DNA of 64,000 nt from Allolobophora icterica (Eukaryota > Annelida > Clitellata > Crassiclitellata > Lumbricidae): assembly GCA_963556255.1 (NCBI GenBank), contig OY744615.1:9985765-10049764 (forward strand), in the 5' to 3' direction. Shown here piece by piece: positions 28,701 to 34,700 of the stretch. Numbering within the stretch: position 1 is the first letter of the stretch; the number at the start of each line of letters is the position of its first letter. Below the pieces are notes generated by a model. It was given only the letters and a program-made list of their open reading frames with translations, was not told the DNA's origin and did not search any database. Both the position numbers and the translations under genes were made by a program.

Positions 28701-31700
28701 TAGTCACTTATTACAAGTACACAAATTTATGTCGATAATTTCTTATTACATGAAAATGCGGAGCTTCGCATATGGAACAAATGGTACCCGGTTCGTTTCC
28801 GTATCCGGCAAATAGAACATCCAAATACTCGGATTCGGTACTCAGTGGAAAATGTCTTTCCGGTGGACCCCTATTAAGTAGTATTATGAGTTTCAGTCTT
28901 CTCTCCTGAGACGGTTATAGTTGAGCAAGTCTTTTCATATTTGCTCAGCACCTTCGATTGATGCTTGGTCATGAGGTGGGGGCACGTAAAAAACAATAAT
29001 AATAAGTGTAAATGTTCATGTTTTATGGCGACCAAACGGCATTGACTCAGCTAACTTTTCAATAAATTGATTGGGTGATATCCTTTACCACCATTCCCTG
29101 TTTGAATGGGTGCCATGCCAGTTAAGGTCCCTGGGTATGGATAGTGTTAGCCCAAATTTGTTCAGTTTAAAATGTTCATAAATAATGCTCTGGATTCTCA
29201 AATTTTGGTGATGTTTCCTCTTTTATGAACGCAGTGTATGGTTATATAATATATATAATGTATATCTGACCTGCTCTGGCAAAAGGAGGCGGAAGTCGCA
29301 AATGATAAAACACGAGAATTTAGCCAAAACATCAATCAGGTGTAAATTTTTCAATTTTCGGTTTTTTGCATATATCAATAAATAAGACCTTATAGTATAT
29401 GAAAAAAATATTGATTTTATAATATTTCACCTATTTCATAACAAATTTAAGAAGTTTGTGTGACTCATAAAAATTATCCGGGAATTTAAAATCATTTTTG
29501 GGTCGCATTCAAGAGTATTTTATGGCCTTCGTTCTGATAGGAATACCACGTGTAATACGTCATTGGAAAGCTAATGCATTCAGCTTGCTAAAAATATCCT
29601 CATTTTGCGGATTTCCCACAGTAATTTCCGTAAATTTAAGGTTAAAAACACTGAAACTTTTCGATTTATGTAGGATATTAAATACCCCTCGTTAGCAACG
29701 AAGTCACGTGACTGAATATGGCTTTTCGATAGGCTGCTATTCTAGGTCGCACATGCAGGCGCTGTTTACGTTGAGTCACGTGACTGAATATGGCTTTTCG
29801 ATAGGCTGCTAATGTAGGTCGCACATGCCGTCTGCTCTGTTTACGTGGGATGCAATTCGGGATACTGGGTTCGTGCGATAAAGATTTAGATCTGTTATTT
29901 TCAATCTTCTTGAGAGTTTAGTAACTTATTTCAGTTTAGAGATGAATAAAACTCAGAAAGAACGTAGAATTGCGCGTTTATTAAACGATGCATCAGCGTG
30001 TGGACTTAAAAATGAAAACTTAGAACAGCTAATAGACGATTATTTCAATACAAACGACGGTTCTGGAAGTGAAGGTGAAGGATTTGACACTGATTACGAA
30101 GACCTTCCTAATCTGCCTACTTCTACAACTGGTTCACCATCAGAAACCATTTCGTCTAATGTCCTTGAAAACGAAGCTAGGATTGCCGATAGTGGTAGTG
30201 AGGCAGAGACCAATAATGAGTTAATCTACGAAAATGACAGTAGGTCTAGAGTTGATGACACAAGTGAAATTGAAAGCATTATAATGAGGACGGCTTCAGA
30301 AAAGCTTGATGTGGATTTGGTTGATGCTCCTGAAATTACAAGCAGGTGCGGTTGTGTGTGTCAACTGTTTGATGGTAAACGCTGCATCGAACAATTCAGC
30401 AAAGAAGAGATTGACAACATTCAGTTAAGTGTGATGGAGATGACATCCTCTGAGAAAGATCTGCTTCTTCTTGGAATTATTTGTTCATCAGTTAACAATT
30501 CTTCAAACACGATGAAAAGTAAAAAGAAACCGGGACAGCAGAATGTTCGTGAACATGCCAGGATACGATGGTTCTACTACCAACATTTTCGTATCTGCCG
30601 GGACACATTTCTCTACATCATGGTCATGTCCAAAAAGAAACTATCGGCTGTGAAGAAATGGTACTTGCAGAATGGTCTTTTGCCCAGGAAAAAACTTTCG
30701 GGAGGCAGGCAAAAAACAGCATTAACACTGGATGACATTCGAGCTGTGACAAAATTTGTGCTGGCATTCGCTGAACAGAATGCACTTCTTCTTCCTGGTC
30801 GAATTCCTGGCTACAAGCGATTTGATATACAGATTCTTCCGAGCTCCGAAACGAAAACGTCGATTTGGAGGCAGTACAAAAATTCTGCTGAAATTGGATT
30901 ACATGTTGTCGGCTGTTCCACTTTTAGAAAATTGTGGAACCAATTGTTGCCCTTTGTCGTCATTGGCAAACCAAGATCCGATGTTTGTTGGGAATGTCAG
31001 AAAAATAATAACAGGATTATCAGAAGTGTGAACTTGGAAGAAGAGGAAAAATCGGCAGTCCTGAAAAAGCAAGAGGAACATTTGATGCGAGCAACGCAGG
31101 AACGGTCTGTCTACAGAAGTTATTGTGACGTGGCAAAGAATGCTGTTCAAACTTTTGGTATCGATGGGCTGGGGCAAAATGTGCCAAACTCTCGACCGAT
31201 CAAATTTCATTATAGTTTCGATTTCGCGCAACAAATTCACTACCCATTTGATCCAATTCAGCCTGGCCCGATTTTTTTCAGGACACCAAGAAAATGCGGA
31301 GTTTTTGGAATAATGACCGAAGGCCTGCCGAAACAAGTAAACTACTTGATCGACGAAGCTGTTTCATGTGGGAAAGGAGCAAACGTTGTCATAAGTCTCA
31401 TCCATCACTTTTTCGAAACCTACGGATTGGGAGAGAAGATCGTGATCTTAAATGCGGATAACTGTTCTGGTCAGAACAAAAATTCGGCCATGTTGTGGTA
31501 TTTATGCTGGCGGATCTTTGCTGGTCTTCACACCTCTATCACAATCTCGTTTTTGCTGGCAGGACACACCAAGTTTGGACCAGACTGGTGCTTTGGTCTG
31601 TTCAAGCAAACTTTCCGACGCACTCGAGTATCATGCTTGAATGAATTAGTCGACTGCGTGAAATCATCAACAGCAACTGGAGTCAACATAGCGCATCTGG

Positions 31701-34700
31701 TTGGATCAGAGGATGGACGGGTATTTGTTCCGATGTACGATTGGGTGTCGTTCCTGTCTAATTTCTTTGTGAAGCTGCAAGGCATTAAGAAATTCCATCA
31801 CTTTTCGGTTGATGCTGCTGCACCTGGAACAGTGACCTGCAAAGAATTTGCTGACAGTCCTCCAGTAGTTAAGAATCTTGGACGACTGATCCCGATAGGA
31901 ATGCCCGAGGTCATCACTCCTGTTGGTCTGGATCAAAAGAGAAAGAAGTACTTGTATGACCAGATACGAGAATTTTGTACAGATGCAACAAAGGATTTAG
32001 TCTGCCCTCGTCCAGAAGAGATTGCAGCAGTACATCTCCACCAAGATGTCCTTGTCGAGATAGCAGTCAATAAGCAAGTCGATCCTCAGGGAGCCCAAAC
32101 TGGAAGCCGACGGCGAGGTCATGGACGATTTCTTGCACAGAAGAAAACTAATGAGCACAATTTATATACAAGCATTGAGAGCTCGTCATCATCAGAAGAA
32201 CAGGAGCAGATTGTAAAAAAAGGTCGTAGAAGTGGCCGCGGACAAGTTCGAGGCTGCAGACAAGGTCGAGGCCGTGGTCAAGGTCATGGAAGAACCAGTC
32301 ATAAAGAGAATGAATGAGAAAAAGCATTAGTAATATTGCATTTATGCAATGTTAGATTAAAACAAATTTCAACAAAATTAATATTAATTTCAGCAATTTA
32401 TTTGTATTTCATGCTGATTTTAACATTTCTGGTGTAAAATTATAGTACCCCTTTAGTGTACATTTCAGCCATTAATTTAAAAAAAAAACAACTAGATGTT
32501 CAGAAATGTATTAAATAGGTTTCAGATGATGTTTATTACCAATTAAAGTAATAGAAGTTGTCAACAAACATGCGTTGCTAAGGAGTTTAGTCTGTATTAA
32601 GATAATACACTTTGCATGCGTTTTTCTCGAAATTGTATTTCCGAGTAGCAAAACATTGTAAAATTCATATCTCTGGAACCAATAAAGATAGAATAATAAT
32701 TTTTTCAACATTTGAAACAGAAATTATTATTTAAAATGTTTAGCCCAAAATATCCAAAACTAAATTTTTTGAGAAAAGCCTCCTTTTGCCAGAGCAAGTC
32801 ACATATATGGTATGTATATATATATATATCGTAAATTGCCCGAGAACATATCGTGACACCTGATGAATCCAACGAGAGACGTCTTTTCCCATAAAAGACA
32901 TACCTGAGGAAGTGATTGGCTGATATCGTGACAGGAGGTCTTTGTAATATTATATGCCGATGCTGCTTTGTAAATATCACCCATAACCGCAGCAGGTTTC
33001 TATTTGTAAGGTAGTAAAACGAGTATCGAGTAGACATTTCGAGTATTATTATTATTATTATTATTATTATCATCATCATCGTCGTCGTCGTCATCATCAT
33101 CATCATCATCATCTGTGGTGTGCCTCTCTCTGGAGCAATGTCGTTTCCACGACCCACAGCCAGCCGTTTCTATTCTGGGTTCATCTTAATGCCGAGTGCA
33201 ATCCAGAGTTCACTGGGCAAGCAAAAGGATTCCTCACTTTCCAAGAGGTTGGAAGACGCTTGCGTGATGCTCCTACCACATATGAACAAGAATGGGGGAA
33301 CCACTCTAAATTAATTCCCTCCTCTTGAAGAATTCCTGACCCAATCCATCCGATCCTCTGCCTCCTCTCTCTGATCTGTCTGGCAACCAAACTCGAATCT
33401 TCACTTGACATCTGTGAACAACCCCTCTAACATAATGCTGTGCTCATGAGTAAGCAGGTGCCCTGCACTCAGCTTTCGAGTAGTGCTCTAGGAATATTGA
33501 GTTTACTTGACTTGCACTTGCAACCACCGAACAATTATATTCACCATGCCAATAGTGTCGCTGCTTGAGAATCAATGACTGAAATATAATTTCTGTGCTG
33601 ATGGTTATCAAATCTATTAACTCATCTATGCAGCTATTGTCCACTGCCTTTGAGAAGGTGCAGTCTTGGATGGTGATCAGGAAAGACCTCCCTAATCCAT
33701 TGCTGTGTGAGAATTGTAGAGAAAAGACTGGGGGAGGGGGAGATTTTGATGAGTTTGATCCATGTGGAGTTGAATATTTTATCCGTATTTTGCAAACTGA
33801 GAAAATTCAAAAACGCAATAGAAAGCTTAAACTCCCTAAAATGATGACATCACCAAATTTATTAGTATACAGTTCACTTGGTCACAGATCAGCTAATATA
33901 ATTTCCGATGTACGTCGCGTAACTCGAATGCTCTAACGCCAGCCAGTGAGGGACGAATGGAGGGAGGGTCCAGGTAAGGCGGTAGAAGCCCATCCCCTGC
34001 CAGCTACTGGCTGCCGGGCGCAGGCATTTTGCGTGCAGAATGCAGGTACTGTACAGATGCATGGCTATGAGAGAGAGAGAGAGAGAGAGAGAGAGAGAGA
34101 GAGAGAGAGAGAGAGAGAGAGAGGGAGAGGTCATCTGGACCCATAAGGCTGGCGAAGCCCGGCCCCGCCCGTAGCCCGGCCGGGCTTGGTCCGCCTACGG
34201 GTCCATCTGACCTATCGACCTCTCACTCTCTCTCAACAAATTTACATACCATGATCCTTCACGGGTTACAGCTAATCTCACAATAAACTTGAGCATTACT
34301 TTATTAGTAACCCACAAAGCAATTTGTGAAAGAAAATGTTGAAATATATGCACAGTATAATCACACTAACACAACCGAGGGGTTGGAAACGACCGCCTGG
34401 GGTGTGCGATGAAGACTTAACTGGGGGTCCTAAGAAAGATTAGGGGATTGAACCCCCAATCCTCCTGACAATTCTCACCCTGATCCATTGAACACTGAAT
34501 ATGTACTACTGAGCACATAACAGCAACTTACGAAATTTGAAAGGTTCAAATCTTAGAACCTGGATGCGTTGTGCATTCGGCAGATTGAGCCAACCTGGGC
34601 CGTGGATGTGAGAATGTCGTTGTTGTGTTGGGTGATGCTGCTTATAGCTTGGACGTTGTTTATAGTTCTGCTGTGTCTCTTAGCAACAATGTAAATGGTA

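Follow-up and report, generated by a model that had tools for sequence, protein, structure and literature searches.

A DUF7869 gene carried by a recently mobile transposon of Allolobophora icterica, most likely a member of the Sola superfamily

A gene whose only recognizable domain, DUF7869, is of unknown function lies between inverted repeats in a stretch of 64,000 nucleotides from the lumbricid annelid Allolobophora icterica (GenBank assembly GCA_963556255.1, contig OY744615.1, positions 9,985,765 to 10,049,764 of the forward strand), called the window hereafter. The question raised by this locus is whether the protein moves the segment in which it lies, named element A below, and to which group of transposons such an element belongs. 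An earlier inspection of the letters alone (the sequence-only reading) had described a complete transposon with 24-bp inverted ends and one intact gene, and had taken its product for the transposase of a possibly undescribed superfamily. The results presented here uphold the transposon and its transposase, while the element is most likely a well-defined member of the known Sola group and not a new superfamily.

Ends, target duplications and genomic copies of element A

The limits of A were set by comparing genomic copies and give a length of 3537 bp (Table 1). Its inverted ends, located where the sequence-only reading had placed them, measure 25 bp with 2 mismatches, one base more per side than the 24 bp called before, and the inverted-repeat score of the 900-base flanks of the gene was matched by none of 200 Markov shuffles. 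Allowing up to 3 mismatches, the 24-bp end occurs at 4 places in the window (mean of 0 over 100 shuffles), two at A and two at 34721-35315, where a shorter relative, element B, is found. B, the 4-bp target duplications and the paralogous sites lacking each element had escaped the sequence-only reading.

Counting the end copies and reading the target duplications in the host genome had been proposed as a check by the sequence-only reading, and both agree with a mobile element. When at most 2 mismatches are allowed, the 18-base inner end motif is present at 777 places (375 + 402) in the host assembly (G000; 1,117,693,669 bases, 328 contigs), against 16 (8 + 8) for a reversed-motif control. Thirty-six adjacent convergent end pairs, drawn from the first listed places on contigs C1-C3, were read: 26 are 600-700 bp long, 3 are about 3.5 kb and 7 lie between 0.4 and 2.4 kb, and identical 4-mers flank 34 of the 36. 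Homologues devoid of inverted ends had been named beforehand as an observation that would count against a transposon, but in the close host family both ends were found in the fetched stretch for 16 of 20 transposase loci, with an identical 4-mer at 14 of these 16. The convergent pairs, the 16 transposase loci and B, minus 5 rows repeating a site, amount to 48 distinct sites, and an identical 4-bp duplication was read at 44 of them (exceptions L034, L040, L071, and L074), whereas 10,000 rounds of right-flank reshuffling gave 20.8 identical 4-mers on average and never more than 30. Identity over other lengths was observed at 31 sites for 2 bp, 1 for 3 bp, none for 5 bp and 6 for 6 bp; the contrast between 4 bp and its neighbors, 3 and 5 bp, indicates a 4-bp target duplication. 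ATAT accounts for 29 of the 44 duplications, AAAT for 7, ATTT for 6, and AATT and TTTT for 1 each, so that 43 correspond to AWWT. Flank-versus-flank comparison of the sites revealed no further pair alike on both sides.

With tblastn, at least 59 matches to the window protein were obtained in the host genome, 14 of which span residues 1-791 (12 free of stops, 2 interrupted by a single TAA). Over its whole length the window element does not differ from L060, which lies on another contig, and it shares 99.9% identity with L059; no similarity was detected between the flanks of these three copies (0.8-1.0 kb per side, both orientations). Since identical copies sit at unrelated sites, there is strong evidence for very recent transposition of the family.

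Further DUF7869 genes, with 35-58% identity to the window protein, are present in the host genome. Four of these divergent genes showed no inverted ends at first within the approximately 1.2 kb read per side; in two of the four families the reason is that the ends lie further out, where they were found by comparing copies; for the other two, no ends were seen in the stretches read. In the 35% family, represented by a copy at C6:70840424-70844355 (L090, L082, L091) and by L089, the ends start with GTGTCCCGACATATG; an AAAT duplication is present at the C6 copy, and the C1 copy is without a matching right end. The 37% family has inverted ends, with no duplication at the site read.

The DUF7869 protein, its predicted fold and its relatives

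The one long gene of A is the DUF7869 gene, a single open frame of 791 codons as claimed before. Its DUF7869 type is confirmed by profile search, the sole Pfam match up to E 1 being PF25273 (residues 451-632, E 2.6e-19, 70 bits against a curated cut-off of 26), which is likewise matched by all 14 members of alignment A3. The gene start is aligned with those of several full-length homologues (e.g., P0003 and P0004) while the C-terminal tails are variable, so that no intron is needed. Scans against NCBIfam and PHROGs gave no usable match, and a sequence search of solved structures returned only matches judged to be due to chance. Regarding the tails, several homologues (P0016, P0092, and others) are closed by a CCHC-like zinc knuckle, visible in the alignment and weakly matched in Pfam, at a place where the window protein is arginine-glycine-rich.

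The three spaced aspartate motifs noticed earlier are present as D427, D506, and D548, whose conservation was counted in alignments A2 (100 homologues) and A3 (Table 1). The RNase H fold that the sequence-only reading had suggested looking for is predicted by an AlphaFold2 model, with the three aspartates at catalytic positions. In two predicted models the core follows the order strand-strand-strand-helix-strand-helix-strand-helix, and acidic residues lie in strand 1, behind strand 4 and in the final helix; fold membership was judged from this secondary structure and from VIA-align rows. Among solved structures, the best matches of the predicted model were retroviral integrases and the Mos1 transposase; the catalytic domain alone was compared by VIA-align, and Foldseek with the whole model returned nothing at E 0.001. 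Unlike the retroviral integrases, the protein has no integrase-core match in Pfam and belongs to a DNA transposon with inverted ends; unlike Mos1, it has no mariner match in Pfam, and A duplicates 4 bp where mariner duplicates TA (2 bp). On the predicted structure, the view that the protein looks like a DDD (triple aspartate) transposase with an RNase H fold, whose gene sits in its own transposon, is well supported, and the earlier reading of the gene as a transposase holds in view of the triad, the predicted fold and the ends with their target duplications.

Relatives of the protein are widespread. Among 8000 candidates scored, 126 matches were obtained at E ≤0.001, with PF25273 in 118 of the 120 listed, and the named sources among the matches listed include sea urchins, a crinoid, molluscs, an annelid, fish, and a hydrozoan. 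In a scan of prokaryote genomes, 12 bacterial or metagenome-assembled genome loci were found to encode relatives, including Desulfocicer vacuolatum DSM 3385 and Thiomargarita nelsonii; a PF25273 rescan gave one match in each of 5 genomes with relatives (5/5) and none in 14 control genomes. The window protein clusters, in a tree built from 39 proteins, with those of echinoderms, Lamellibrachia, and metagenomes (7 rows, 100/99), and the 8 bacterial proteins make up a separate group (95/93). Elsewhere, tblastn of the window protein in phages and of a bacterial relative in plasmids found nothing; in viral contigs, a protein pattern scan gave 31 matches, none of them a relative, and the 18-base end had 2 exact matches, of which the one examined (L001) has GC-rich surroundings that look unrelated.

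Long inverted repeats flank the bacterial gene at L003-L007 and L010 (0/200 shuffles, 900-base flanks), and at L009 a 36-bp candidate end pair lies further out, beyond the reach of that test; no inverted ends were seen at L008 (with 107 bases on the left only) and L011-L014. With respect to homologues without inverted ends, the 12 bacterial loci are therefore divided into 6 with ends, one with a candidate pair and 5 with none. The flanking 4-mers are identical at 2 of the 7 elements with ends, namely L006 (AATT) and L007 (AAAT), where a 4-bp duplication fits, and unequal at L003 (AAAT/ATTT), L004 (ATAT/ATTT), L005 (ATAT/ATGT), L009 (ATAT/AAAT), and L010 (ATAT/ATTT). As 2 of 7 is no better than chance given AWWT on both sides, the bacterial elements speak for the target preference but, taken alone, not for the duplication. 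The alternative of a 2-bp AT duplication was rejected for them: it fits L003, L004, L005, and L010 and fails for L006, L007, and L009. When the flanks of L003 are joined, a neighboring frame, presumably of IS3 type, is seemingly not continued at the left side according to its translation, so that the two flanks may not have been together before insertion. Taken with their ends, these loci suggest that the same core serves in single-gene bacterial insertion sequences. Most ends of these elements (L003-L007, L009, and L010) start with GGGG or GAGG beside AWWT, and that of T. nelsonii contains GGCAAAAGGGGG, close to GGCAAAAGGAGG in the window element.

Transposase and superfamily: weighing the alternatives

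That the inverted repeats are a chance pair around a host gene is next to impossible: no supporting point was found, and this explanation is refuted by identical copies at unrelated sites, by the abundance of the end motif and by the duplications at 44 of 48 sites. Alternatively, another enzyme might move the element, and the DUF7869 gene might be a passenger or a host gene that was domesticated, as could be argued from the two divergent host genes and the 5 bacterial loci without inverted ends in the stretches read. However, A has no other long gene, the conserved triad and the predicted RNase H fold are transposase traits, and the bacterial relatives with ends are likewise built around a DUF7869 gene. 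Moreover, both ends lie in the fetched stretch for 11 of the 12 stop-free full-length copies, with an identical 4-mer in 10 of these 11. The passenger explanation is thus very improbable, and the DUF7869 protein is almost certainly the transposase of A.

The anatomy of A was compared with that of published Sola transposons by description only. A review (PMC10741241) describes Sola elements as present in bacteria and metazoans, with a DDD transposase, duplications of 4 bp and inverted ends 11-1124 bp long; in Repbase, Sola1-3 are groups of one superfamily (PMC4455052). In amoebozoan Sola2, the duplications are AT-rich 4-bp AWWT, e.g., ATAT, AAAT, and ATTT (PMC3627910). A shares with Sola and Sola2 the AWWT duplication, the triad (catalytic by prediction) and terminal inverted repeats whose 25 bp fall inside the range given in that review; as in Sola, relatives of its protein occur in bacteria as well as in animals. 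Transposase size is also similar to Sola2, with 791 residues in A and 888 in one published amoebozoan case. By contrast with the amoebozoan cases, A is without a Fanzor gene, and its ends are longer than the 12-21 bp of those cases. On these grounds A is assigned to Sola, most likely Sola2, with a probability of roughly 0.85.

The superfamily proposed by the sequence-only reading finds no support in this comparison, given that the triad, the duplications, the ends and the joint bacterial and animal occurrence fit Sola (Sola2). A DDD superfamily so far undescribed, in which DUF7869 elements from bacteria to deuterostomes stand apart from Sola1-3, share AWWT and DDD with them by coincidence and include a currently active host family, is unlikely. 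In its favor, the protein is above the cut-off for no Pfam transposase family, and the likeness to Sola comes from description and not from alignment to a named Sola transposase. The literature searches also found no paper naming DUF7869 or PF25273; within their reach the link between DUF7869 and Sola is therefore not in print and looks new. No protein named Sola is found among the best 120 of 126 homologues listed, or the best 120 of 181 in a wider alignment. Against such a superfamily, Sola was reportedly described by Bao and co-workers in 2009 from bacteria, protists, plants, and metazoans. The tested anatomy furthermore agrees with Sola as described in print, and the AWWT duplications with Sola2.

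Another known superfamily, be it Ginger, Chapaev, piggyBac, or Kolobok, is less likely still. All four are said to make 4-bp duplications too, but the target here is AWWT, and no other Pfam family was matched up to E 1 by a library that did detect a DDE_Tnp_1_7 remnant elsewhere in the window. The piggyBac target is TTAA (PMC5199201), and piggyBac and Kolobok were rejected on the TTAA target, which occurs in 0 of 44 duplications. Tc1/mariner was rejected on the 2-bp TA duplication, identity being found at 44 of 48 sites over 4 bp versus 31 over 2 bp. Zator, whose duplication is 3 bp, was considered through PF07592 (DDE_Tnp_ISAZ013), which we take to be the "transposase 36" family behind it. 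A weak profile match to PF07592 lies near the second and third aspartates in 4 of the 14 A3 members (best E 0.0013); the three matches with scores seen are all under the cut-off (18.3 bits in the best relative versus 26.9), and the window protein gave no match up to E 5. Zator was therefore rejected, with PF07592 below its cut-off and 3-bp identity at only 1 of 48 sites.

As a member of the Sola superfamily, A would be a recently active cut-and-paste DNA transposon, this mode appearing more plausible than copy-and-paste. DUF7869 would belong to the catalytic core of its transposase. The enzyme may bind the 25-bp ends and cut there by means of a two-metal RNase H active site formed by D427, D506, and D548; the element could then be joined to the two strands of an AWWT target at points staggered by 4 bp, from which repair would leave the 4-bp duplication. 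The many deleted relatives of about 600 bp, such as B, are probably moved in trans by the same enzyme. A likely function is hence offered for a Pfam domain that is widespread and so far without an assigned role: the DUF7869 proteins, which currently carry the label uncharacterised in sea urchins, molluscs, fish, and other sources, are most likely transposases. With intact, near-identical copies and with ends and target defined, the host provides what experiments on Sola-type transposons would require.

Element B, the tandem duplication and neighboring sequences

B is non-coding, has the same ends as A and lies in the opposite orientation. In the 29267-32801 numbering of A, it matches positions 1-387 at 85% (390 columns) and 3319-3535 at 90% (217 columns), a divergence because of which it is not a direct derivative of the window copy. 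The two elements are located in a tandem segmental duplication (21096-40316), in which about 21.1-33.0 kb corresponds to 33.0-40.3 kb through collinear pieces 80-96% alike; A is confined to the first unit and B to the second. Counterparts of the B flanks lie at 25085-25145 (93.4% over 61) and 25161-25622 (94.4% over 462), and counterparts of the A flanks at 39642-40021 (80.5% over 395) and 40074-40316 (85.5% over 248); as these paralogous sites lack the elements, A and B behave as insertions. At the site without B, 20 bases of a GTAA/GTAT repeat, counted by eye, differ from the joined flanks; on sequence comparison this site supports the absence of B and not an exact pre-insertion sequence, which, given this difference for B and the TA-richness for A, neither empty site provides.

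Table 1. Coordinates of the features discussed, in window numbering
Feature	Position	Strand	Remark
Autonomous element A	29266..32802	+	Ends in register with 48 distinct genomic sites
Left terminal inverted repeat of A, 25 bp, CTGACCTGCTCTGGCAAAAGGAGGC	29266..29290	+	
Right terminal inverted repeat of A, 25 bp, GTGACTTGCTCTGGCAAAAGGAGGC as read on the - strand	32778..32802	-	
Target-site duplication ATAT of A, left copy	29262..29265	.	Window copy = locus L061
Target-site duplication ATAT of A, right copy	32803..32806	.	Window copy = locus L061
Pair of 55-bp direct repeats with 96% identity, lying between left end of A and gene	29702..29828	+	
Putative transposase gene, 791 codons, single open frame, DUF7869	29942..32317	+	No stop in 12/14 full-span genomic matches, window copy included
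D427, proposed first catalytic Asp, in first core strand (418-428)	31220..31222	+	99/100 in A2, 14/14 in A3
D506, proposed second catalytic Asp, just past fourth core strand (498-505)	31457..31459	+	100/100 in A2, 14/14 in A3
D548, proposed third catalytic Asp, in helix 546-559 after fifth strand	31583..31585	+	95/100 in A2, 14/14 in A3
Non-autonomous element B, 597 bp, internally deleted relative of A	34720..35316	-	
Target-site duplication ATAT of B, left copy	34716..34719	.	
Target-site duplication ATAT of B, right copy	35317..35320	.	
Paralogous site without B, other duplication unit	25145..25161	.	Flanks match
Paralogous site without A	40021..40074	.	TA-rich, exact junction ambiguous

With insertions counted, the present lengths of the duplication units are roughly 12 and 7 kb, and each has received later insertions of its own. 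A reverse transcriptase frame (35854-37200, - strand; RVT_1, E 1e-20), probably from a non-LTR (long terminal repeat) element, is found in the second unit only, and the junctions of this insertion, 35776 and 37171, join at 25617-25622 of the first unit. Two pieces of the first unit have no counterpart in the second and are probably interspersed repeats: 23666-24263, with a relative at 57217-56617 (86%), and 21196-21483, with a relative at 62990-62688 (83%). The DDE_Tnp_1_7 remnant, presumably of piggyBac type, lies at 47856-48437 (- strand) with 22.7 bits against a cut-off of 22.4. A Rhodopsin-type G protein-coupled receptor gene is located at 19974-21099 (- strand), apparently in two overlapping frames, the longer of which matches 7tm_1 (E 1.2e-15); the second, 19974-20387, was assigned by eye.

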